Assembly: GCA_024405395.1 (NCBI GenBank)
Contig: JAKSOW010000028.1
Span: 1 to 32,363, forward strand
Direction of reading: 5' to 3'
Length of the DNA: 32,363 bases
Origin: Kiritimatiellia bacterium
GTDB lineage: Bacteria > Verrucomicrobiota > Kiritimatiellia > RFP12 > UBA1067
Under the pieces are notes generated by a model. That model did no database searches and was not told where the DNA came from. It saw only the letters and a program-made list of their open reading frames with translations. The position numbers and the translations under genes were made by a program. Position 1 is the first letter of the stretch, and each line of letters begins with the position of its first letter. Shown one piece after another: positions 14,331 to 29,260 of the stretch.

Positions 14331-15422
14331 TTACACGAGTTCCTCGATGAAGATGAATCGGTAGCCGTTGTCCTGCATCATCTGCGACATCACGCGGATC
14401 TTCTCCGCATAATCCGGCTGATAGGCGAGATAGTCGGGGAAGAAGTACTGTTCATGGTCGGAGAAGCAGAGGTGGTCGCGGCCCAGCACCTTGGCGGTAT
14501 CGCTCTTCAGCGTGGGCACGTCCACCAGATTGAGGCACGGCGCATCGCAGAACAGGTGCTTGAAGCGCATGCCCGTGCGCTTGTCGAGCACGCTCTTGAG
14601 CGACAGGCCTGTGGCGGCGGCCTGCGCCTCGGAAATGTGGTTGTATGAGCAGGCCGACGCGCTAATCTCGGCATTGCGCGAATCACGCCAGTAGAAGGCC
14701 GTCTCCGGCTTGCGGTTCTGCTCGATGCGCATCGCATGGCCATAGGGCAGACGCGACCGCACGCCGTCATAGCGATAGCGCGGCCCCACCGTGCATTCCA
14801 TGATCTTGATGCCCAGGTCCTTCATCGCGCGGCACCCCTCCTCGCTCATCGGGCACCAGTGCGGCACAAGCGCACACGTGAAGACGCCTTCACCCGCAAA
14901 GCGGACGATCTCGCCCTTGATGCGGTTGAAGAGCTTGACGATGTCGGCGTAATTGGCGTTGAGCCACGGATAGTCGGGGAATTCCTGCAGGGAGTGGAAG
15001 CCGAGCTTGAGCCAGTCCTTGTTCGCCTGCCATTCGGCCTTGTAGGCGTCCGGCACTTCGGCGAGCGAGAACTCGTCCATGCCGTAGTAGAAGTCCGTGC
15101 GGTAGAAGAGGTTGATCTGCAGCTTGAGGCCGTACTTGTCGTGGCATTCCTTCAGGGGCTTCAGAAACGCGTTGTCGAACAGCGATTTCGGACGCTGCCG
15201 CGCCAGGTCGCGCAGGAACCAGATGGCGTCGTCGATGAAGAACGAGGCGAACTTGCCCTTCAGCGCCGGATTTGAGACATACTCGAAATCGGAAATGGTC
15301 GGCGGCAGCTCCACGGCGCCCCGCGCGAATTCGGGGACCTTGCCCGCGGCATCCGCGACAACCGCCGCCGGGGCCGACGCGAGCGCCAACGCACCCGCCT
15401 TGAGAAAATCACGTCTGTTCAT
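14331..15422 (-). CDS. Tat-exported polysaccharide-deacetylase-like protein
   Basis: 363 residues. The N-terminus NRRDFLKAGALALASAPAAVVA is a twin-arginine signal, so it is exported folded, possibly with a metal. FFIDDAIWFLRDLA (about 61-74) and LGFHSLQEFP (140-149) resemble the Asp-Asp and His motifs of NodB-fold deacetylases, and the strand spacing fits that barrel. The usual HxxxH metal pair is not obvious, so activity is uncertain. AAGGAG lies 6 bases before the ATG. It is the first gene of a two-gene unit, with a good promoter upstream and the repeat-rich region beyond it. Confidence 0.6.
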   Translation of the reverse strand: MNRRDFLKAGALALASAPAAVVADAAGKVPEFARGAVELPPTISDFEYVSNPALKGKFASFFIDDAIWFLRDLARQRPKSLFDNAFLKPLKECHDKYGLKLQINLFYRTDFYYGMDEFSLAEVPDAYKAEWQANKDWLKLGFHSLQEFPDYPWLNANYADIVKLFNRIKGEIVRFAGEGVFTCALVPHWCPMSEEGCRAMKDLGIKIMECTVGPRYRYDGVRSRLPYGHAMRIEQNRKPETAFYWRDSRNAEISASACSYNHISEAQAAATGLSLKSVLDKRTGMRFKHLFCDAPCLNLVDVPTLKSDTAKVLGRDHLCFSDHEQYFFPDYLAYQPDYAEKIRVMSQMMQDNGYRFIFIEELV

Positions 15423-17546: not shown

Positions 17547-19583
17547 TCAACGAAGAATCACCATTGTCCCCCGGACACCCTTGACCCGAAGCGTGTTTCC
17601 CGAGACGAATGCGCACATGAACCGCGCCGGCCGCCCATCGACCTCAATGGCGTAGGAAGCCAGATTGGCGGCACCGACAATACCTTTCGCCGCCGTCATC
17701 AGCGGAACGTCAATCTCCCGTTCATGCCGAGAGCCCAAGCCATCCAGACGGATCTTGCCATTTGCGGCCAACGTCACGACATTCGTCACGTTCAACCCAA
17801 CCGTCTGAGCCACGCGCCCGCGCAGACCGGCAGATTCATTCAGCACCACATTCGCGACCTTGCCCGTGCCGGACACGTACGCCCCAGCCCGCACTACGAT
17901 ACCGCTTGCACACGCCAGATCGCCATCCACCTGCAAGGTTCCCTCTTCCACCTTGGCCTCGCCGTTGATCAGATAGCCCTGACTGCTGGCCGCGAACGAC
18001 GGCTGCGACAGACGCAACGTGCCCACCCCCGTCTTGCGGAATGAAATGCGGAATGCCTTCAGCGCATCCTTGTTCCAGCGCAAGATCGGACGGCCAATGT
18101 CGGCGTCGACTTCGCCATCCCCCGTAACGTCCGCGATGTCGAACTTCGTCTCGGGATAACCATTGACAAGCAACCCCTTCTGCGCCAGGCTGGCACCGGC
18201 AATCCACGGCCAGACGAAGGGTTCATCCCCCTCCACCTTGAAAGTATCCATGACCTGAAGTGCGCCTGCACCAGACAGACCATTGTATTCGGCTATGTGG
18301 CCGCCATTGCGGAACGTGACGCGCGGCAGCGGCACGCCCTGGGCATCCGCAAACTTCAAGGCTCCACCATCCAACACCACGGTGAAATTGTAGCGCGACT
18401 GGTCATTGGTGATCGTCGTCGAACTGATCATGCCGAAGATGTTCCGGTTGGGAATGAAAAGCGTGCCGTTTGTGCTCACGCGGATTTCGCGCAGGCGCTC
18501 AGTTGTGGTCATGTTGCCGAGGTACCAGGTTGCGCCCGCCTCCTGGCTCAGGTTGGCGTTCAGGTCAAAGCCGGCCTGCAAGGTTCCCCCGCGAACTTCG
18601 ACATCCCCCGTGAAACTGTTGAGCTTGTTGGTGAGGATCATCGTTCCTGGCCCCGTCTTGACCAGTCCAGAAGGCACGTAGGCCGTTGCCACCGTATTCG
18701 TGTAGGCGTCCACCAGCCGAAAGCCGTTTGTACAGTCCGCCACAGCATTTCCAGTGACATCAGCTATCTCGAATTCCGTTAAGGGTCCGAACCACAGATG
18801 TACCCGATCCTGCCCACTGTTCTTGTAGGGCGGCGCGGCAAACGTCATGGGCTTGGTGCCGCGAACCGTGACTTTCCCCGACAATGTCATGCGGCCATAC
18901 GAATTGCCATACCCCGTAAGGTTGGCATAGTCAAATTCGGCGTCTTCAAAGGATATTGGGCCCAACCCCATGTGTGCATTGGCTGCCGAGCTGTCGGAGA
19001 TCCTCAAACACCCTCGCGTAACCTCAATCGGCGTGGTGATGGCCAGGCCTCCCGTACCGCCAAACATGTTACGGCAGTCCAGATGCAAGGTTGCACCTTC
19101 ATTGACCACGAAAGGCGCAGTCTTCTGCGCAAGACCGCTGAGCTGCCCGTACGTGCCGAAATAGACCGTGCCGCCATTGATGACGAAGCCGCCGTCCACC
19201 GACGTGAGAACCGTTCCAACAAACACGAGCCGTCCGGCGCCGCGCTTTTCCCATCGCGTCGTCCAGTCGCCAAGGTAGTTGGTCACGCGCGTAAGCGTCA
19301 AGTCACAGGCAGCCGGCACATCCAGCACAAGGCTCTTGGGTTTCATGCCGGAAGCCTTGATCTCAATGGTCTGCGTGCTGCTCACCGAAATCACCGCGTC
19401 ATCGCCGTTCTGGAAAGTCGTTGCCTCAGCCGTGTCCGCCAACGCCCAGTTCTTCGTCGTGGTGTCGAAAGAATTGTTCACAGCCCCCGTCCAGACGATG
19501 GAACGCGCCTGTGCCGAAAGGGCCAACCCCATCAACACCGAGACGATCCGTGCTGCACCAGCCAAGGATATTGCGGTTTTCAT
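17547..19583 (-). CDS. secreted PATR beta-strand-repeat protein
   Basis: 678 residues with a signal peptide ending near LSAQA. At least three autotransporter-associated beta-strand repeats are visible: WEKRGAGRLVFVG with INGGTVYFG (111-142), LVKTGPGTMILTNK with VRGGTLQAG (306-338) and FRKTGVGTLRLSQ with VEEGTLQVDG (515-554). These predict a surface or extracellular beta-helix, but no autotransporter barrel domain follows. Two IADVTG segments (272-277 and 483-488, the second within DIADVTGDGEVDAD) resemble EF-hand/dockerin loops. The last 38 residues match the other PATR protein of the window. The start MKTAISL has GGAGA 7-9 bases upstream. A sugar-binding or surface-layer role is inferred from context only. 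Confidence 0.75.
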   Translation of the reverse strand: MKTAISLAGAARIVSVLMGLALSAQARSIVWTGAVNNSFDTTTKNWALADTAEATTFQNGDDAVISVSSTQTIEIKASGMKPKSLVLDVPAACDLTLTRVTNYLGDWTTRWEKRGAGRLVFVGTVLTSVDGGFVINGGTVYFGTYGQLSGLAQKTAPFVVNEGATLHLDCRNMFGGTGGLAITTPIEVTRGCLRISDSSAANAHMGLGPISFEDAEFDYANLTGYGNSYGRMTLSGKVTVRGTKPMTFAAPPYKNSGQDRVHLWFGPLTEFEIADVTGNAVADCTNGFRLVDAYTNTVATAYVPSGLVKTGPGTMILTNKLNSFTGDVEVRGGTLQAGFDLNANLSQEAGATWYLGNMTTTERLREIRVSTNGTLFIPNRNIFGMISSTTITNDQSRYNFTVVLDGGALKFADAQGVPLPRVTFRNGGHIAEYNGLSGAGALQVMDTFKVEGDEPFVWPWIAGASLAQKGLLVNGYPETKFDIADVTGDGEVDADIGRPILRWNKDALKAFRISFRKTGVGTLRLSQPSFAASSQGYLINGEAKVEEGTLQVDGDLACASGIVVRAGAYVSGTGKVANVVLNESAGLRGRVAQTVGLNVTNVVTLAANGKIRLDGLGSRHEREIDVPLMTAAKGIVGAANLASYAIEVDGRPARFMCAFVSGNTLRVKGVRGTMVILR

Positions 19584-19615
19584 GCTCTTTCTCTCCATTT
19601 GTCTTTTTCCCGAAA

Positions 19616-21439
19616 TCACTCCCCAGTCATCCGAAACCAACGGAAACAGGCGCCCTGCGGGTCATGGGCCATCGCCAACGTCTGAAGGTGCAGATAGGAG
19701 ACGCCAAAGGGCGAGAAGCCCTCCGCCTTGAGGGCGGCAGACGTCTCGCGTCCGTCGCAGGCCAGCGTCGCGCGCCCTGCCTCCAGATCCCAAGTCAAGG
19801 TCACGACGCCCCAGCGCGCAGGGCCACCCAACGTCTCGGCGCTCAACGCCAATGACGCCATCGCCCGTTCGCGAATGGCCCAGTCGCACGGATTGATCCA
19901 ATGGTCGCAAAGCGACACCAGCACCCCGGCGCCATCCACACGGCATTCAAACGAGACAGACCCCTTCTTTGCCGCCGGAAAATTCCAGGTTACGCCTTGG
20001 TGCTCATCCACCAGCCGCTCGTCGTGAATCCGGCAGATGCGCAGACATTCGCGCTTAGTGCCCGCTGCCGTATCGGGCTCGCGCATCATCACGGCACCTG
20101 CCACACGATTGAACGCGCAATGCCCGGACCATCCCGCATAACCGCCATTCAGCGATTTGAGATAGAGGTGATTGGAAAGATGCTCGGTGCCGCCCCTCAA
20201 CGTCTCTTCGCGCTCCTTCTCATAGAGCCATTTCACGTCGAAGACGACAATGCGGCGAGAAGACACGGCCTGCCCCAGGCATACCATGACCTTGCCCTTG
20301 GGCATTTCGATGAGTTCGGCCTGATGCACGCTCTTGTCTATGCCATGTCCGCCCCGCATCTGCCAGAATTCATTGCCACGTTCGCGATAGTCCTCGTGGT
20401 TGCGTATCGCGTTGAGCGCAATCTCGCGGAAACCGATCCAGGTCTTCCCGTCATCCTCCGAAATCGCGGCATGCAGCGCGTCACGGTTGGTGAAGACCGA
20501 CTCCCACCGCCCGCTCAAGGAGCCCGGCCCCAGTTCTGGATACTCCGAGGCCGCCCGCTTCGGCAGAATCTGCGTGTTGTTCCACACACAGAGGATGCGG
20601 CCGTCCGACAGGCGCTTCAAAAGCGGCATCGTGTTCGACTGCCAGAAAGCCGGCGGCTCGAAACGCGGCCCCCAGGTGACGCCGCCATCATGCGACAGAT
20701 AGCACACCGCATGGTCCACGCCCGAGCGCGTCATCATGTAGAGTGTGCCGTCCGACAGTTCGACGATGTCCGGCTCATGGCATCCCGTGTTCCAGCGATG
20801 CGATGCGTCCGGCGGCGTCACTTCGTCGCACAGCGCAATGTCGTGAATCTCAACGCGAGGAGACCACGTCTGCCCCTCGTCATCCGAATACACGAGACAG
20901 GGATAATAGCCAATGCGATCCGGACATTTTCGATAGAACGAGAAGATCCAACGCCGCCGTTTCTCCAACGCCAGAAGGCGCCCATACGACGTGATTCCGG
21001 CTATTGGCCCACGCGAACGAATCTCCTTGCCATCCGGCCCCAGATCCCGCCTAAACCACTTGCCCTGCTCCTTGCCGGCATCGACGCAGGCCACATTCAA
21101 GCCATAGTCCGCCCAGGGGCAAGGCCTGTAGAAGGCATCCGAGGCATCGGCCTCCCGAATCGTCCAGTTGAAGCCACAATCACGCGAACACTGGACGAGG
21201 CGCACCACGTTTGTGCCGTAACGCCGTGAACCGCCATTGCGGATCTCTCCGTCCGGCATCACGCGAATGGCATTCGCCCCACTATCCGACAACGGCGTTG
21301 CCACCTGCTGGGGGGCGTAGATGGCATCGAAATAGATGCGCGCCGCTCCCGTCAGAGACGGCCAGGCCACTTTATCCGCAGCCGAAGCGGCCAACCCCAC
21401 GCACACGAGGCCAACTATGACTGAGCCCGTCATCCGCAT
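19616..21439 (-). CDS. exported Asp-box (BNR) sialidase-like protein
   Basis: 607 residues with a signal peptide (VIVGLVCVGLAASA). Four Asp-boxes mark a six-bladed propeller: SRDCGFNW (85-92), SDDEGQTW (185-192), SHDGGVTW (249-256) and SEDDGKTW (327-334). CHEPDIVELSDGTLYMMTRS (from 220) resembles the sialidase strand carrying a catalytic-site Glu and Arg. The N-terminal FRIP motif that supplies the first triad arginine is not recognisable, so exo-sialidase activity is likely from context but not proven. A C-terminal beta-sandwich follows. It starts 3 bases after the lyase stop, so translation is probably coupled. Confidence 0.75.
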   Translation of the reverse strand: MRMTGSVIVGLVCVGLAASAADKVAWPSLTGAARIYFDAIYAPQQVATPLSDSGANAIRVMPDGEIRNGGSRRYGTNVVRLVQCSRDCGFNWTIREADASDAFYRPCPWADYGLNVACVDAGKEQGKWFRRDLGPDGKEIRSRGPIAGITSYGRLLALEKRRRWIFSFYRKCPDRIGYYPCLVYSDDEGQTWSPRVEIHDIALCDEVTPPDASHRWNTGCHEPDIVELSDGTLYMMTRSGVDHAVCYLSHDGGVTWGPRFEPPAFWQSNTMPLLKRLSDGRILCVWNNTQILPKRAASEYPELGPGSLSGRWESVFTNRDALHAAISEDDGKTWIGFREIALNAIRNHEDYRERGNEFWQMRGGHGIDKSVHQAELIEMPKGKVMVCLGQAVSSRRIVVFDVKWLYEKEREETLRGGTEHLSNHLYLKSLNGGYAGWSGHCAFNRVAGAVMMREPDTAAGTKRECLRICRIHDERLVDEHQGVTWNFPAAKKGSVSFECRVDGAGVLVSLCDHWINPCDWAIRERAMASLALSAETLGGPARWGVVTLTWDLEAGRATLACDGRETSAALKAEGFSPFGVSYLHLQTLAMAHDPQGACFRWFRMTGE

Positions 21440-21442
21440 GGC

Positions 21443-22372
21443 TTACGCCCTGGCCTGCCCCTTCTTCACAATGCCCAGGGCGGCGAAACGCTTCAGATAC
21501 GCCTTTTCCTGAGCGGCCGTAAGCTTCTCGAACGGCGCACGGTAGGGTCCGCAGTCGATGCCCACGAACTTCATCATGGCCTTGCGGTAGCTCCAGTTGT
21601 CGCTCTCGATCATCAGACGAACAACCTGATTGGCCTCGTCCTGCCATTTTGCGGCGGCACGGAAGTCGTTTTTCGCGGCCAATTCGCAGATCTTGGCGAA
21701 ATGACCGGGGATGATGTTGTAGGTGGTGCCGATGCCGCCGGCGAAGACATTGTCCAGCGCCAACGCACAGAGCAGCTGCTCGTCGCAACCCGCAAACCAG
21801 ATGGTTTCCTTCACCTTGTCGATGTCACGCTTGAGCGCCTGGGCGGCATAGTAGTCGCGCCCCGTGTACTTGATGCCCTTCACGTTGGGCAGGTCAAAGA
21901 AGCGGATGTCGCGCGCGGGCACCAGCTCGGAGCCAATCGAATACGCCATAAACGGCAGATCCGTGGCTTCTGACACCCGCTTGTAGTGGTAATAGGTGCG
22001 GTTGAAGTTGTTGCAGAAGACGGGCGGCGCGACGGACGAGATCCAGTCCACCCCCACGTCTGCCGCCGCCTTCGCCAGCGCCACCGAGACGTCGGTGGAG
22101 GTATCGCCCACGTGAGCAATGAGCTTGCAGCGGCCGTTGGCCGCCTTCACCGCACGACGCCACACGGTTTTACGTTCCTCGGGGGAAAGCAGAAACCAGC
22201 CGCCCGTGGAGCCCGTGAGGTAGAAGCCGCGCAGGCCATTGGCGATGCCGTATTCGACGATGGCGTCAATGGCCTCCTCGTTGACACGATTCTTCCGGTC
22301 GATGGGCGTGAACAGGGCGGCATAGGCGCCCGCCATGCCCTTGAAGCACGTTTCCGTCAGTTTAATGCTCAT
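21443..22372 (-). CDS. nanA: N-acetylneuraminate lyase-like aldolase
   Basis: A 309-residue DHDPS/NAL-family class I aldolase, cytoplasmic. GFYLTGSTGG (49-58) is the carboxylate-binding loop; Tyr144 and Schiff-base Lys168 (GIKYTG) are in the expected positions, and GGIGTTYN (212-219) closely matches the NanA version. The reaction would be N-acetylneuraminate to ManNAc and pyruvate. The sialidase-like gene and symporter on either side favour NanA over dihydrodipicolinate synthase, although another 2-keto-sugar acid is possible. Its start overlaps the end of the symporter gene by 11 bases (ATGAGCATTAA), a sign of coupling. Confidence 0.82.
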   Translation of the reverse strand: MSIKLTETCFKGMAGAYAALFTPIDRKNRVNEEAIDAIVEYGIANGLRGFYLTGSTGGWFLLSPEERKTVWRRAVKAANGRCKLIAHVGDTSTDVSVALAKAAADVGVDWISSVAPPVFCNNFNRTYYHYKRVSEATDLPFMAYSIGSELVPARDIRFFDLPNVKGIKYTGRDYYAAQALKRDIDKVKETIWFAGCDEQLLCALALDNVFAGGIGTTYNIIPGHFAKICELAAKNDFRAAAKWQDEANQVVRLMIESDNWSYRKAMMKFVGIDCGPYRAPFEKLTAAQEKAYLKRFAALGIVKKGQARA

Positions 22373-23816
22373 TTTCAGACATTCCTCTTGAAGTGGGTTT
22401 CAGGCAACTGGCAATCGGCGCCACCACCAGGCACGCCACCATTCCCAGAAACCCGTACAAAAGCAGATGCGGCTTGCCCGCAAAGGGTATTTGGTCCAAT
22501 CCGAAGCAGACGATGTAGTTGGCCACCAGACCGCAGGTGGCGCCGAAACCATTCACCCGTTTCAGGAAGATGCCCATGAAGAAGAGGCAACCCAGGCCTG
22601 CGGTGAAAATGCCCAGGAACCGCTGGAACTGGTCATAGATGTTGCGGATGTCCGCATTGGCCAGCCAAAGCGCAAAGGCGCCGCCCAGAATGCCCACGAC
22701 CACCGTGCAGATCTTGCCGCAGCGCAGTTCATTCTTGCCCTTCCAGAGGCGGCGATAGAAGTCGGTCGTGATGGCGCTGGCCGCCGAATTGAGGTTGGAC
22801 GACAACGTGCTCATCGTCGCCGCCGCCACAGCCGCCAAGACAAGGCCCGAGATGCCCGAGGGCAGCTCGTGGGCAATGAAGATGGGCAGCACGGCGTCCG
22901 GCTTTGTGTCAGCCGGCAACGCACCGGCGTGCGCCTGATAGAAGGTCCACAGCGCCACGCCCAGCACGAAAAAGACGAAGCAGTTTATGAATGACAGCAC
23001 GCTGTTGAGCAGGATCGAACGGGCAGCACCCTTCTCGTCCGCTGTCGTCATGTAACGCTGCACCACGCATTGATCCGAGGTATACGACGCCAGATTCGCC
23101 ACCAAGCCGCCAATGAAGACCACCCAGAAGCAGGGCTTCGTGAGATCGAACGCGAAGTCGAACACCTTGAACTTCTCGGCCTCCATCCCCTGCGAGATGA
23201 AGCCCGCCATGCCGCCATCAGACCCCATGATCGCCCAGGTAAGGATGACCGCCGTCGAGCCGATCAGGATGAGCGACTGCACAAAGTCGCTCCAGATCAC
23301 GGCCTCCACGCCGCCCGTTGTGCAGTAGAGAATGGTGATGGCGACCACCGCCAAGATGGCCAGGTTGATGTCGAAGCCGGTTACAGCCGTGATCGCCAAC
23401 GCCGGCAGATACGTCACAATGGCCGTGCGGGCGATCATGAAGAGGATGAACGCCGCAGAGGCAAACAGACGACAGGGCAGATTGAACCGCACTTCCAGAT
23501 ATTCGTAGGCGCTCGTCAGATTCAGCTTTCGGAAGAATGGCAGATACCACTTCACCACCACCGGCGCCAGAAGGACAACGCCAAAGGGAAGAACAAAATA
23601 GCTCATGTTCCCCGCAAAGCTCATCGCCGGCACGGTGATGAAAGTGATGGAGGAGAACATCGTCGCGTAGATCGAGAGCGCCACCACCCACCAAGGCAGC
23701 TTGCCACCCGCCTTGAAGTAGGCGTCCGCATCCTTGTTGCGGCGCATGAACCAGAAGCCCATCCCGGCCATGATCAGGAGATAAACGAGGATTACGGCTA
23801 TATCCAATATCTTCAT
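22362..23816 (-). CDS. sodium:solute symporter (SSS family), probable sialic-acid importer
   Basis: 484 residues with about 13 membrane segments. Family marks are LPWWVVALSIYATMFSSITFITVPAM (near 40-65), TGGVEAVIWSDFVQSLILI and LVLAAVAAATMSTLSSNLNSAASAITTDFY, the SSS sodium-site region. The SSS family includes dedicated sialic-acid transporters; here the substrate is inferred from the adjacent lyase and sialidase-like genes. It is the first gene of the operon and divergent from the AraC regulator. No Shine-Dalgarno is present and the -10 box lies 8 bases before ATG, so the mRNA looks leaderless. Confidence 0.85.
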   Translation of the reverse strand: MKILDIAVILVYLLIMAGMGFWFMRRNKDADAYFKAGGKLPWWVVALSIYATMFSSITFITVPAMSFAGNMSYFVLPFGVVLLAPVVVKWYLPFFRKLNLTSAYEYLEVRFNLPCRLFASAAFILFMIARTAIVTYLPALAITAVTGFDINLAILAVVAITILYCTTGGVEAVIWSDFVQSLILIGSTAVILTWAIMGSDGGMAGFISQGMEAEKFKVFDFAFDLTKPCFWVVFIGGLVANLASYTSDQCVVQRYMTTADEKGAARSILLNSVLSFINCFVFFVLGVALWTFYQAHAGALPADTKPDAVLPIFIAHELPSGISGLVLAAVAAATMSTLSSNLNSAASAITTDFYRRLWKGKNELRCGKICTVVVGILGGAFALWLANADIRNIYDQFQRFLGIFTAGLGCLFFMGIFLKRVNGFGATCGLVANYIVCFGLDQIPFAGKPHLLLYGFLGMVACLVVAPIASCLKPTSRGMSENEH

Positions 23817-23824
23817 CGACGATG

Positions 23825-23833
23825 ATTATATCA
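23825..23833 (-). promoter_or_regulatory. extended -10 of the symporter operon
   Basis: TGATATAAT on the minus strand, 8 bases before ATG 23816. No good -35 hexamer is found at 16-18 bases, which suits an activator-dependent promoter. A TATACA element lies in the -35 zone. Confidence 0.6.
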
Positions 23834-23852
23834 TCTCACTCATCTGACACAG

Positions 23853-23884
23853 TATACAAAACTACAAGATATTTTTATACACAT
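23853..23884. promoter_or_regulatory. direct repeat TATACAMA, possible AraC-type operator
   Basis: TATACAAAACT (from 23853) and TATACACATCA (from 23876) share TATACA and are 23 bases apart in direct orientation, close to two helical turns as in AraC-family paired half-sites. The left copy falls near -35 of the symporter promoter and the right copy near -35 of the regulator promoter. Specific binding is inference. Confidence 0.45.
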
Positions 23885-23898
23885 CATGCCCAAGGCTG

Positions 23899-23907
23899 TG
23901 CTATAAT
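23899..23907 (+). promoter_or_regulatory. extended -10 of the AraC regulator gene
   Basis: TGCTATAAT, identical to the extended -10 elements at 1615 and 15448 on the minus strand. ATG 23914 follows after 6 bases, again without a Shine-Dalgarno. No clear -35 is visible. Confidence 0.65.
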
Positions 23908-23913
23908 CGCCGC

Positions 23914-24825
23914 ATGCACGAAGACCCCATCATTTACCGAGACTACAAAGGCGACCGTGTATTGGACCTCCGTTCCGACGGCGTGGACTGCATTCCTGTC
24001 CTGGGCATGAGCAGCTTCCTGGCGATTCGGCCAGGTCCAGACAATCACATTCACCCGGGGTGCATGGAGTTCTGCCTTTGCCTCAAAGGTAATCTCATCT
24101 TTGACTCGGAAGGCGGCGAATATCCCTTTCTGCCGGGCCATATCTTCGTCTCCGCACCCAATGAGCCGCATCATCTGCGACATAATCCCAGCGGGCTCAA
24201 GGTCTACCGCATTCTGTTTGCGATCCCCAAACCCACCCATCGCCTGCTGGGACTGGATCGGGCTGAAGGCGCCTGGCTTTCCCATGCGCTGACACACATG
24301 CCCAAACGCCTTTTTGCGGCTACACCCACGATACGCGGAGCCTTTGAGCGCCTTTTCCATCTTTACGACAACGAAACGCTCGGTACGGCGGAACGACGTG
24401 TCCGCATGAAGGCGGCAGCGCTCACGCTTTTGGTGGCGCTCGTGGAGGCAGCTGGCCAGACTCCTCCCAAATCCGCTCGCGCAATTGAGACGCTGGCCCA
24501 GCACATTCTCGAACATCCAGACGGCGACTTCCCGGTCGCAGACATGGCCAAGATCGCCGGCATGTCGGTTTCCGCCTTCTCAGACGCCTTCAAGCGCGCC
24601 AAGGGGCTGCCCCTCCATGCCTATGTACTGAACTGCCGAATCAACCGCGCCCGTGCGCTTCTGGAACAGACAAACCGCTCAATCGCGGCCATCGCGCATG
24701 AACTGCGCTTCTACTCCGCCCAGCACTTCGACAAGATCTTCAAACGCATCACGGGCGTCTCGCCCACGTCCTATCGTCAGAGAGGGGACACCTGCCAGTC
24801 CCGGCGCAAATCCTGTCGGGCCTAG
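23914..24825 (+). CDS. AraC-family transcriptional regulator with cupin sensor domain
   Basis: 303 residues. The N-terminal half has a cupin-like sugar-sensing pattern (NHIHPGCMEFCLCLKGN, then YPFLPGHIFVSAPNEPHHL, residues 44-88). The C-terminal 100 residues hold two helix-turn-helix motifs: VADMAKIAGMSVSAFSDAFKRAKG (208-231) and IAAIAHELRFYSAQHFDKIFKRITGVSP (258-284), the AraC signature. It is divergent from the symporter operon, so it is probably the local activator and may autoregulate. The start is 6 bases after a strong extended -10, consistent with a leaderless mRNA. Its stop shares the tetranucleotide CTAG with the stop of the convergent PATR gene. Confidence 0.92.
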   Translation: MHEDPIIYRDYKGDRVLDLRSDGVDCIPVLGMSSFLAIRPGPDNHIHPGCMEFCLCLKGNLIFDSEGGEYPFLPGHIFVSAPNEPHHLRHNPSGLKVYRILFAIPKPTHRLLGLDRAEGAWLSHALTHMPKRLFAATPTIRGAFERLFHLYDNETLGTAERRVRMKAAALTLLVALVEAAGQTPPKSARAIETLAQHILEHPDGDFPVADMAKIAGMSVSAFSDAFKRAKGLPLHAYVLNCRINRARALLEQTNRSIAAIAHELRFYSAQHFDKIFKRITGVSPTSYRQRGDTCQSRRKSCRA

Positions 24826-27641
24826 CGCATGTAAATGGCGCAGCCGGCCTTATAGACCGTCAAGACGCCATTACGGCAGTGGAAACGCGGACTTTTGGAC
24901 TTCGCCACACCGTTCATCTGCAGCGACCAGTTGGCGAACGCAGACGTGTCCACATGGCTGAACGAAAGCGGCAACGTCAGCGTCTGGCCGGCGAAATCGT
25001 CGGCCAATACATTCAGCGTGCCCGAGGTCGCGAGCGAAAAGCCGTCCAAGGTTCCGCCTGACACAGGGTCGACGGCGAGGCGCGAAATCGCAGGCGCGTT
25101 TTCACCCTCGAACTTCAACGTTGCGCCACCCGACACCTTTACGGCGCCAATCTGCGTCAGCATATCGAACTTCCGCATCGGCACCGTGTTGGTGGCGACG
25201 AATCCGCCGCCGTTTGTGCGCTTGTACACGGACAACGTGGGGTCTTTATGCCAATCGACGGCGGGATCTGAAGCGTCAAAATGATCTTCCGACGTGCAGC
25301 CAGCCCCCGCTTCGTACGAGCTTCTTCCCGTTGAAATCCACCGATAGGTCCCTGTAGGCTTCACACCATCCTGAATGCCCGAAAGATCCTCCCAATGCAC
25401 GCCATCCACGGATCCAAGGAGCTTCACGGCCGTCACCCAGGAGTGGGCGAAATAAGGAGCGGTATTGCCGCCGCCACACGCCACGTCGAACAAGGTGACG
25501 GGTTGGGCCCCTTCCGCGAGGCACATATCCAGGTTCAGCCAGCTGTCGGGGACGTTCCGTTGCGGTCCTCGCGCGGCACTGGTGGCGCCCGGCGGCACGA
25601 AGCCTCGACGGAACAGATTCCACAATCTGCTCTCTTCCATCTCGCCCGGGCCCTTCACGTAAGGCGCACGGCAACCCGAAAACAGCAACTCCAGCAAATT
25701 GAATCCATGTGCCACGCCGCCGTCTGCGCCAGAAACCGTACGATTCCAGGCCATGGCCACAGTCCCCGGCCGCAGTTCCCCCTGACGCACCAGCTTCAGG
25801 TTCATGTTCTGGCGCGTAGTATCCGCCGCCCAGAGCCCAACCTGAACCATGTCAACCGTCGACTCCCACCAGGGAGTCTCGTAGTAATCGGTGTTGTAGT
25901 CGGCGACTTCACAGACAGAAAGCCGATAATAGCCGTACTTGTCCTCTGGGAAACGCTTGACGACGAGCATGCCCCCTTCCACCGAGAGATCGCCGGAGAA
26001 GGTGAGATCGCCACCCAGTTGCCACGTTCCGGGGCCGCGCTTCAGCACCGAAACGACGCCATCTCCATCTGCCACGTCATACACCTGATTGGTCATGGAC
26101 GAGGTGCCGTCGAGGACGAGCGTCTTCGCGCCAGAGCCCAAGCCCGTCACACCCGCGTACTTGACCACGCCTTCATTGGCGTTCTGACGGAATCCGCCAC
26201 AACCCGCCAACGCAAAGGAACGGTCCTCCATCATCATGGCGTCTGCCGAGGTATTCTCCAGCAGGCCGGTGGCACTGGCATTCGCAGCATCACCGAGCAT
26301 AATCGCATAATCGACCGCATTGGCGTTGTCATACTGCTCGACACGCTCGTGGCAGTTCGTCGAGGTGCCGATCGAACTGACTTCGCCGCGTCGACTCAAC
26401 AGCCCACACCCGAGCACACCGTCCTCGATCGCCACAGTGGCGGCCGTGGTACTGGACTTATGCTCAAGATTCCACTGTCCCTTTCCGGTCTTCTCAATGT
26501 AGACATCCCAGAACTGCGAATTACCGTCCGTTCCCCACCGGTTGATGGCGCTTTCGAGCCAACAGGGCTGAAGATTGTCACCGGCAAGAACCAACGCGTC
26601 ATTACGTCGTTCGGTAGACCAGTGCGAAGCGATCGCCCCCGTAAGACGCAGATTGCCGTTGGTGCCGCCCGATACCAGCGTATCCAGCGAATGGACATAG
26701 AGGCTGCGGTCACAAGTCTCACCCAGGCCCGTATAGACAAACCGCTGCGGCAGACTGGCATTGCCCGGCCCCATCGAGCTTTCCGCATCCGCGACATTCC
26801 CCAACTTGCGCAGATACAGCGTACCGCTGAAGTTCTTCTCGTTCGAGGTGCCCGTCGTGACAGAGGCGCGGTTGGCCGATCCTTGAAGGTCCATCGTGCA
26901 ACTGCGCACCTGGAGCTGAATGTTCGCGCTCAACACCCCCGAAAAGCTCGACAGTTCCTTGCGTCTGCTGCCGTTCTTGTAGATACGTGAAACGGTAGTG
27001 GACTCATTGGTGATGAGCCCCGCCCCCTCCACCTGAAGAGTCTGCCACGCGCCCTTGTCACCAGTGGCGGGCACAATGATCTTGGCGCCGGCGGCGACAT
27101 AGTTGTAGTCCATCATCCACCAGTAGCCCACGTCATTCGGCGCATGAGGCTGAATGCGGAGCGTGCCCTCCATCACACGCCAATCGCCCTGATGGTCCGA
27201 GGCCGACGTGCTGCTGGGATTCAGGAGCCTACACGAATCCAGCACCAGCTCCCCGGCGCCGGTCTTGTACACGACACCGATTTCCGCATCGATGGTAACG
27301 GAGCTGTAGAATGGCCGCGTCAGCGTCATCGTCTGGCCTGCCGGAACATTGATCCTGATCGTGGCCGCGCCATACTGGAAGGCGGAGATGGAACTGAGGA
27401 AGTTGGTGATCGCAGGGAAGTCGGCAGACGTGCCATCGATCGTAATATCAAGTTCCTTCGAGACCGAGGTGCTGACGATGTCCGAGCTGCTCCCCGTGGG
27501 CGCGTTGCCGTCGCTGTAGAACTCGCCGTTTGTCCAGTCCGCCGCCGTGACAGGCGCCTTGATGAGCGTGAACGTCTCGGCCTTCGTCGCCAACGCCAGC
27601 AGACCGATGACAGTCGCGGCAATCAATCTCTCGACACGCAT
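24822..27641 (-). CDS. large secreted PATR beta-strand-repeat protein
   Basis: 939 residues with a signal peptide (MRVERLIAATVIGLLALATKA). Beta-strand repeats of PATR type are seen at 124-164 (YKTGAGELVLDS, MEGTLRIQ), 382-414 (IEKTGKGQWNLEH, DGVLGCG) and 532-562 (LKRGPGTWQLGGDLTFSGDLSVEGGMLVV). Residues about 715-756 (LFDVACGGGNTAPYFAHSWVTAVKLLGSVDGVHWEDLSG) resemble a discoidin (F5/8-type) carbohydrate-binding fold. No outer-membrane barrel is present. The C-terminal 38 residues align with the PATR protein at 17547. The start is set by GGGGAG about 10 bases upstream and by the signal peptide. It is the last gene of its operon, and a surface glycan-binding role is inferred. Confidence 0.72.
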   Translation of the reverse strand: MRVERLIAATVIGLLALATKAETFTLIKAPVTAADWTNGEFYSDGNAPTGSSSDIVSTSVSKELDITIDGTSADFPAITNFLSSISAFQYGAATIRINVPAGQTMTLTRPFYSSVTIDAEIGVVYKTGAGELVLDSCRLLNPSSTSASDHQGDWRVMEGTLRIQPHAPNDVGYWWMMDYNYVAAGAKIIVPATGDKGAWQTLQVEGAGLITNESTTVSRIYKNGSRRKELSSFSGVLSANIQLQVRSCTMDLQGSANRASVTTGTSNEKNFSGTLYLRKLGNVADAESSMGPGNASLPQRFVYTGLGETCDRSLYVHSLDTLVSGGTNGNLRLTGAIASHWSTERRNDALVLAGDNLQPCWLESAINRWGTDGNSQFWDVYIEKTGKGQWNLEHKSSTTAATVAIEDGVLGCGLLSRRGEVSSIGTSTNCHERVEQYDNANAVDYAIMLGDAANASATGLLENTSADAMMMEDRSFALAGCGGFRQNANEGVVKYAGVTGLGSGAKTLVLDGTSSMTNQVYDVADGDGVVSVLKRGPGTWQLGGDLTFSGDLSVEGGMLVVKRFPEDKYGYYRLSVCEVADYNTDYYETPWWESTVDMVQVGLWAADTTRQNMNLKLVRQGELRPGTVAMAWNRTVSGADGGVAHGFNLLELLFSGCRAPYVKGPGEMEESRLWNLFRRGFVPPGATSAARGPQRNVPDSWLNLDMCLAEGAQPVTLFDVACGGGNTAPYFAHSWVTAVKLLGSVDGVHWEDLSGIQDGVKPTGTYRWISTGRSSYEAGAGCTSEDHFDASDPAVDWHKDPTLSVYKRTNGGGFVATNTVPMRKFDMLTQIGAVKVSGGATLKFEGENAPAISRLAVDPVSGGTLDGFSLATSGTLNVLADDFAGQTLTLPLSFSHVDTSAFANWSLQMNGVAKSKSPRFHCRNGVLTVYKAGCAIYMR

Positions 27642-27679: not shown

Positions 27680-29260
27680 TCACAGGTCACGCAGGCCCGA
27701 ATAGGATGGCCCACCTGCCGCCACATAGCCGCCAGAAGCGCCCTTTGCGTCCTTGGTCACCCAGAACGAATAGAGCGTCGCGCATCCCAGATGGAACCGA
27801 AACGCCACGGTTCGCCCGGCCAGGGCAGCAAGGTCCCGCCCCTTCCAGACGACTTCGCGCTTCGTCGCGTCGATGCCCGCAACCGTTGCGCAATCTGCCG
27901 CCGAGAAGCCCGTCAGCACCGCCCCGGCTTCATCAAGCACCTCCACGGCCACCGATCCGAAAAGGCATTCCGCGTTCACGAAGAGGTGAGAGCCCGAAAA
28001 CACAACGGGCTTCGTCGTGAGCATTCCCGCGGCATCCGCCACCATGCCCGCGAAACCATCCCGGCGCAACGTCGCATAGCCGATGGCGCCGCCATCATAC
28101 ATGCCGTTGTCCTTCCAGTGCTTGGCCTTGAGCTTGCGGCCATCGCCTCGCAGCCCCGAATAGAAGATGCGCAGCTCGTCGTCGGAAACGGTGCAGATGC
28201 CGCTCAGACACGACAGATATCCCGTATCCCATTTACCGGAGCCCCAGCCCTCGGGCGCGATGTCCGGCTCAACACGCGGCTCATACGTCTTGCCGTCGCG
28301 CGAAAAGCAGAAATGCAGCCCCGTCTGCTTGGGCAGCCCCACCTTCATGCAGTCGCCGTTGTCGCCAGGCGTGTTGTAGAGCACCTCCATCACGCCCAGC
28401 ATCAACGACTCGTAGGCCACCGCATTGAAACTGTAGAGCGACCGGCGCAGGCCATTGGTGGCGACCAGCCACGCGGCGGGCTCAGGATACTTCTTGAAGG
28501 AGTCCGGCACTTTCCCCTGGGCGGCAGGCGCCTTCTGCTTTTCAGGCCAACACCAACGGCAAGCCTCGCCGCCGAAGGACGATGCCGCGAAATAGCGGCG
28601 ACTGCGGCCAACGACCGGACGATAGTCCCGCAACGAGAAGACCCAATTCGCACGGAACGGGTCGTAATAGGCCGTGGAACGGTCCCCCGAGTGCCCCGCC
28701 ACCCCCAGTTCACGGAAGGTAAAGCCATCATCCGACGCGAACAGCGTGTCGGGGCAGGTGTTGCCGGGTGACGAAATGTGCATCTTCCAGGCGGCGTAGG
28801 GATTGGCGGCCGCATAGTCGGGCGTCACATCCCAGCTGTCCAACGGCGGACGCGTTGCATCCGGGAACACGCGATTGGTTCCCGGCACCTTGCCGAGATC
28901 GGGATATTCCCAGTGGCGTCCATCGCGCGATTCGGCATAGCAGACATCGCCCAGCCACCCCGCCTGATACCACAACCGGAACCGCCCCCGCGTGGGATCC
29001 CACCAGAGACCGCCGTCCGTGGCGCAGGTGAGCGTCGCAGGAGCCTTCCCCGCCACTTTGGGCGCGGCACCCCCTGATGGCCAGACGACGGGCCCGGCGG
29101 CTTTCACAGGTCGATTCCAATGACGGACAACCCCCGTAGACGAGGCTACGAGGAAATCGTCCACAAACAGCTGGCGACCGAGGTCAATGTTGACAGGTCC
29201 AGCAAACGCGCACAATGCGCCCATCCCCAAACCACCCAACAGACCTCGTCTCCAGCTCAT
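27680..29260 (-). CDS. exported beta-propeller glycosidase-like protein (GH43/GH32 type)
   Basis: 526 residues with a signal peptide (about 1-20). After it comes DLGRQLFVDDFLVASS (26-41), the opening typical of a PVC-bacterial family often described as GH32-like. Repeated WW/RLWY, CYAESRDGRHWEYPDLGK, DTLFASDDGFTFREL and HFCFSRDGKTYEPR segments indicate a five-bladed propeller. A C-terminal beta-sandwich (VAVEVLDEAGAVLTGFS) matches the accessory domain of such enzymes. The catalytic acid triad cannot be assigned with confidence and the substrate is unknown. GGGAG precedes ATG by about 9 bases. It is spaced 24 bases after the esterase and 38 before the PATR gene. Confidence 0.62.
   Translation of the reverse strand: MSWRRGLLGGLGMGALCAFAGPVNIDLGRQLFVDDFLVASSTGVVRHWNRPVKAAGPVVWPSGGAAPKVAGKAPATLTCATDGGLWWDPTRGRFRLWYQAGWLGDVCYAESRDGRHWEYPDLGKVPGTNRVFPDATRPPLDSWDVTPDYAAANPYAAWKMHISSPGNTCPDTLFASDDGFTFRELGVAGHSGDRSTAYYDPFRANWVFSLRDYRPVVGRSRRYFAASSFGGEACRWCWPEKQKAPAAQGKVPDSFKKYPEPAAWLVATNGLRRSLYSFNAVAYESLMLGVMEVLYNTPGDNGDCMKVGLPKQTGLHFCFSRDGKTYEPRVEPDIAPEGWGSGKWDTGYLSCLSGICTVSDDELRIFYSGLRGDGRKLKAKHWKDNGMYDGGAIGYATLRRDGFAGMVADAAGMLTTKPVVFSGSHLFVNAECLFGSVAVEVLDEAGAVLTGFSAADCATVAGIDATKREVVWKGRDLAALAGRTVAFRFHLGCATLYSFWVTKDAKGASGGYVAAGGPSYSGLRDL

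Follow-up and report, generated by a model that had tools for sequence, protein, structure and literature searches.

A Seven-Residue C-Terminal Element on Large Exported Proteins of Kiritimatiellae as a Candidate Sorting Signal

Introduction

Type IX secretion acts on surface proteins that combine a Sec signal with a C-terminal signal, and its type B domains end in a short G...R/K strand. In the 'choice-of-anchor' domains, the name refers to the anchor after the domain, which differs between proteins. The PEP-CTERM/exosortase (EpsH) system uses a short C-terminal element of about 24 residues with a PEP motif, a transmembrane helix and a basic cluster, and type Va autotransporters with PATR passengers carry PATR repeats in their exported part and a translocator barrel at the C-terminus. 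Type IX domains are 7-stranded sandwiches (PMC10994853), and the BAM beta-signal follows the consensus zxGxx[aromatic/hydrophobic]x[aromatic/hydrophobic] (PMC10945584).

Literature searches for Kiritimatiellae together with secretion systems or PEP-CTERM returned nothing relevant, and, as far as we found, the surface placement of large glycan-locus and other surface proteins in rumen and gut Kiritimatiellae is undescribed. Here we describe the C-terminal ends of two PATR proteins of one member of this class and of their counterparts in the same genome and its relatives.

Materials and Methods

The window is the whole stretch of DNA analysed, 32,363 nucleotides in length; its contig (C201) belongs to a 4.04 Mb genome of the class Kiritimatiellae that is 84% complete (hereafter G000; other genomes are numbered likewise). 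About 0.92 Mb of G000 was analysed in stretches. Some 70 G000 ORFs with PATR matches were fetched with their surroundings and, four unlikely ORFs having been dropped, the resulting set comprised 65 complete ends. A PATR-blind sample of 363 kb of G000 was chosen regardless of PATR. For the region upstream of the terminal residues, a profile was built from 11 other G000 tails with the last 7 residues removed. Genomes were also scanned at the DNA level with the strict pattern GTx[VILM]x[FLIMV]R-stop and a reversed control.

Results

The Two Window Proteins and Their Setting

Both window proteins give PATR/TIGR02601 matches above the curated cut-offs (Table 1), and Pfam and NCBIfam searches return PATR matches only, with no match to an autotransporter barrel in either protein. 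The original prediction, made from the letters of the DNA, had already described two barrel-less PATR proteins here, and the positions and terminal residues that it gave for them hold, on the minus strand. The ORF of the first protein (17547-19640, minus strand; 697 aa) opens with a TTG at 19640, upstream of the likely start at 19583, and the upstream GTG start of the second ORF, at 27683, overlaps the stop codon of the preceding gene.

Table 1. Coordinates of the two PATR proteins of the window and of their C-terminal features.
Feature	Coordinates	Strand	Remarks
First PATR protein	17547..19583	-	ATG at MKTAISLAGAARIVSVLMGLALSAQA; Sec signal peptide 19506-19583
PATR / TIGR02601 repeat, first protein	18570..18668	-	46.3 bits
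Last 41 residues of first protein (AANLASYAIEVDG...)	17550..17672	-	'nLAxWxV'-type pre-terminal unit plus heptapeptide; tail-profile match, alignment
Heptapeptide GTMVILR, C-terminal end of first protein	17550..17570	-	stop codon 17547-17549; fits G-x-x-Phi-x-Phi-[RK]-COOH
Second PATR protein	24822..27641	-	939 aa from ATG at 27641; signal peptide MRVERLIAATVIGLLALATKA 27579-27641
PATR / TIGR02601 repeat, second protein	25959..26051	-	36.0 bits
Last 41 residues of second protein (TSAFANWSLQMNG...)	24825..24947	-	pre-terminal unit plus heptapeptide; tail-profile match
Heptapeptide GCAIYMR, C-terminal end of second protein	24825..24845	-	stop codon 24822-24824

The two genes lie within a glycan-use locus (10248-32311, minus strand) that also encodes a GH2 enzyme, a BNR sialidase-like protein, an N-acetylneuraminate lyase-like aldolase, a sodium:solute symporter and a glucuronoyl esterase-like protein. 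Given these neighbouring glycan-use genes, both proteins are plausibly surface proteins of the locus. A further protein of the window (14331-15422, minus strand), beginning MNRRDFLKAGALALASAPAAVVADA, has a weak, sub-cut-off match to a Tat signal and no other family match. For the aspartate carbamoyltransferase encoded in the window, identity to the best 80 matches is 68-90%; these matches come mostly from rumen/gut MAGs, many of them labelled Kiritimatiellae.

A Terminal Heptapeptide

The strongest element common to both window tails is formed by their last seven residues. The exact end G-x-x-[VILMF]-x-[FLIMVYW]-[RK]-COOH is present in 55 of the 65 G000 PATR proteins, about 15% of which deviate from the pattern. 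Inside these 65 proteins it fits 94 of 73,057 positions (0.13%), and a tighter form is found 39 times at the terminus versus once internally. Information content reaches 3.2 bits at position -1 (R), 2.3 at -2, 2.0 at -4, 1.5 at -6 and 2.5 at -7 (G), and no position from -8 to -30 exceeds about 1 bit. The codons used for the glycine and the arginine vary synonymously, and the constraint therefore acts on the peptide.

As background, 11 of the 1,879 further ORFs with 100 codons or more, read in all six frames of the same stretches, match the pattern; ten of them are 276-1,021 codons long and the eleventh 105 codons, and most are large or secreted-looking. Signal peptides are present in most carriers of the heptapeptide. 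Its strictly C-terminal position on many unrelated signal-peptide proteins is what is generally expected of a C-terminal sorting signal.

The Pre-terminal Unit

Compared only with each other, the two window tails align weakly (score 26, with 6-10% of shuffles as good). The 11-tail profile, however, gives 29.2 bits to the second window protein and 13.9 bits to the first, with 0 shuffles as good, and since a profile of other tails recognises both proteins, the unit of about 40 residues is real. A 12-tail profile scores about ten more PATR proteins outside the training set above 8 bits; together with the 12 training tails, this makes the unit 'nLAxWxV...G...R...G.L.V' common to about 22 of the 65 PATR proteins, and the remainder have other pre-terminal units followed by the same last seven residues. 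A fold search with a model of the unit gave nothing better than E 1.9. The sole match of a PDB sequence search, to an S-layer protein, was weak (E 0.031) and was not used.

The C-terminus that the original prediction saw in both proteins is thus genuinely shared, but the main common element is the terminal 7-mer and not the proposed 38-residue module, which is a real unit and only one of several pre-terminal types. The alignment behind that module combines one type of pre-terminal unit with, nested in it, a terminal signal of much wider occurrence. The shared tail did prove to be strictly C-terminal and borne by signal-peptide proteins, and its terminal and internal counts speak against the concern that it might simply be the last PATR unit, repeated within the proteins.

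When its last 119 residues were modelled with AlphaFold (pLDDT 86.7), the second window protein showed a compact, non-barrel domain with the last nine residues outside every strand. A model of a beta-helix carrier, weak overall (pLDDT 60) and used only for its last 9 residues, has these disordered. In these two models of different domains, the tail is thus predicted to lie outside the folded domain.

Carriers Beyond PATR

In the PATR-blind sample eight ORFs match the heptapeptide; seven of them are 1,063-1,556 codons long, and most have a signal peptide. Among ORFs of at least 1,000 codons, 7 of 29 carry it, versus 1 of 1,356 shorter ones. Several carriers are beta-helix proteins without PATR: among eight scanned non-PATR carriers, DUF1565 was found in three, and the NCBIfam choice-of-anchor Q domain also in three (above cut-off in two). 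In G039, which belongs to a different family of the class, the tail comes almost directly after the end of a beta-helix (DIGAYE-SPPPA-GTLILIR, about 12 residues), and in G002 and G004 it stands behind other-looking ends, so that a whole further domain is not needed. Two G000 loci (L038 and L081, on contigs C38 and C245) each contain three consecutive genes for tail-bearing proteins, which suggests tandem operons of surface proteins.

The strict pattern gave, as matches and reversed control, 35/1 in G000, 24/0 in G002, 23/2 in G008, 13/1 in G012, 11/0 in G004 and 29/0 in G039, and was near background in nearly all other class and phylum genomes scanned. The 29 matches of G039 (L425) occur in a genome that yet has no PATR match at the threshold used. 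When one strict match per genome was read, those of tail-bearing genomes mostly ended ORFs open for more than 500 codons, and those found elsewhere mostly ORFs of fewer than 165 codons; all 20 strict matches within the analysed 0.92 Mb of G000 lie at the ends of ORFs with 276 codons or more. Because the strict pattern fits only 15 of the 55 PATR tails of G000, its 35 matches suggest by extrapolation roughly a hundred or more carriers in this genome, somewhere over 100.

Relatives and the Place of PEP-CTERM

PATR proteins throughout the family of the window (G001-G012) share the tail, with a stronger T at -6 and a last residue that drifts to K, Q or L. As it drifts to Q or L in other genera, the end need not be basic. 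PATR proteins of several other families of the class (G024, G037, G041, G052, G053, G061, G074) end in PEP-CTERM, as do those of many further members of the phylum, and in G084 and G131 some PATR proteins have ends like those of true barrel autotransporters. One PEP-CTERM protein (G074, L354) has a pre-terminal unit homologous to that of tail-bearing proteins from the family of the window (21.0 bits, with none of 300 shuffles as good). The last domain is the same there and the ending different, and the heptapeptide occupies the place held by PEP-CTERM in related families.

The likeness to PEP-CTERM extends further, since each is a short C-terminal element borne, within a single genome, by many diverse proteins with signal peptides, each occupies the same position on PATR proteins, and each may be preceded by 'choice-of-anchor' domains. 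Unlike PEP-CTERM, however, the tail has 7 residues and none of its three hallmarks: a PEP motif, a transmembrane helix and a basic cluster were found in none of the 65 G000 PATR tails. G000 does encode an exosortase (PF09721, E 1e-49, C24:14356-15126), the presence of which does not itself link it to the tail; the enzyme is found in most relatives too, and most family genomes encode it in an ORF of about 550-600 codons. TIGR02595 (PEP-CTERM) matches in G000 fall on other ORFs, mostly of about 200 aa (mostly about 170-250 codons family-wide), so that PEP-CTERM is used there by small proteins, unlike the tail. With an exosortase present and TIGR02595 on these other, mostly small ORFs, both endings coexist in G000, apparently with divided cargo. 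Substitution of the tail for a lost exosortase was ruled out, as G000 has both exosortase and PEP-CTERM. With type Va autotransporters the carriers share PATR repeats in the exported part, but they do not have the C-terminal translocator barrel.

Discussion

There is good support for the tail as a functional, position-dependent and interchangeable C-terminal element. We lean, with moderate confidence, towards reading the terminal heptapeptide, G-[TLM]-x-Phi-x-Phi-[R/K]-COOH, as the C-terminal signal by which these Kiritimatiellae sort large Sec-exported proteins, mostly beta-solenoids, in the role that PEP-CTERM has for the same kinds of protein in related families. The original prediction of sorting or anchoring gains from the strict C-terminal position, the signal peptides, the number of carriers and the place shared with PEP-CTERM; the sorting itself is what we infer from them. 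The tail is probably a short, helix-less surface-sorting signal, bound as a beta-strand by a putative outer-membrane receptor. Judging by the signal peptides, carriers would first be exported by Sec and have their signal peptides cleaved; the body would then fold and, as modelled, leave the C-terminus free as an extended peptide. The tail, with its alternating hydrophobic residues and its basic residue beside the free carboxylate, could then pair as an added beta-strand with a putative outer-membrane or periplasmic receptor, which would move the protein to the cell surface or hold it there. No candidate receptor was found among the genes examined, and no specific secretion gene of the kind whose co-occurrence with the tail the original prediction proposed to check emerged.

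By analogy, the free tail peptide resembles the BAM beta-signal zxGxxPhixPhi shifted by one residue (PMC10945584). A true BAM beta-signal, which BamA/BamD would bind like the last strand of a barrel while the passenger, having no barrel itself, is displayed or retained at the surface, nevertheless seems unlikely. The glycine at -7 and the hydrophobic residues at -4 and -2 have the spacing of the consensus (PMC10945584) and stand, like the BAM signal, at the extreme C-terminus, but the polar first position is weak, an extra R/K follows the last hydrophobic residue, and the carriers are beta-solenoid passengers with no barrel to insert; in two real barrel-type proteins of G000 (DUF481 and DUF3034) the final residues are W and F, and no basic residue follows. 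A single Omp85 protein was detected in almost every genome of the family (G002 gave no match and G008 two partial ones), which in most of them leaves BamA as the only candidate of that kind. A dedicated Omp85 channel for the tail was rejected, most family genomes showing one Omp85 protein. We likewise give low probability to a structural role without targeting, as a donor strand joining neighbouring beta-solenoids into a surface layer or fibre, or as a cap strand. The strand-like alternation, the free end in the models and the large, repetitive carriers, sometimes encoded in tandem, would suit such a role, but the same 7-mer stands behind several differing pre-terminal units and domains, and related families place PEP-CTERM there instead.

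A type IX system recognising the tail as a reduced or divergent form of its C-terminal domain is very improbable, although the tail shares with type A and type B domains the combination of a Sec signal peptide with a C-terminal signal and, with type B, a terminal strand with a basic residue. As the original prediction held, the tail is recognisable neither as PEP-CTERM nor as type IX: NCBIfam models of the type IX C-terminal domain matched none of the two window proteins, the eight non-PATR carriers and 20 members of one of our tail alignments (A2), and a search of G000 and 46 relatives (47 genomes) for SprA, itself without a positive control match, gave no match. The about 12 residues after the beta-helix end in G039 also contrast with the 7-stranded sandwiches of type IX (PMC10994853). 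Common descent, by which copied 3' ends of a paralogous family would have left a functionless tail, can be given hardly any credence. There are many PATR paralogues in one genome, some of them sharing the pre-terminal unit of about 40 residues, but conservation lies mainly in the last 7 residues, with unrelated sequence upstream between types, the codons vary freely and the tail is present in several families of the class; its occurrence on unrelated domains contradicts this explanation.

Returning to the sorting signal, it is possible, though we put it forward only tentatively, that the tail defines a new Gram-negative secretion or anchoring route, in which a seven-residue signal with no membrane helix or domain would be read by a putative outer-membrane receptor and would bring giant beta-solenoid proteins, roughly a hundred or more in each genome, to the cell surface, beside the exosortase. 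A compact C-terminal tag replacing PEP-CTERM would allow the surface proteins of these bacteria to be listed and would give a target for finding the receptor through co-occurrence, and it may also be a very short, portable surface tag.
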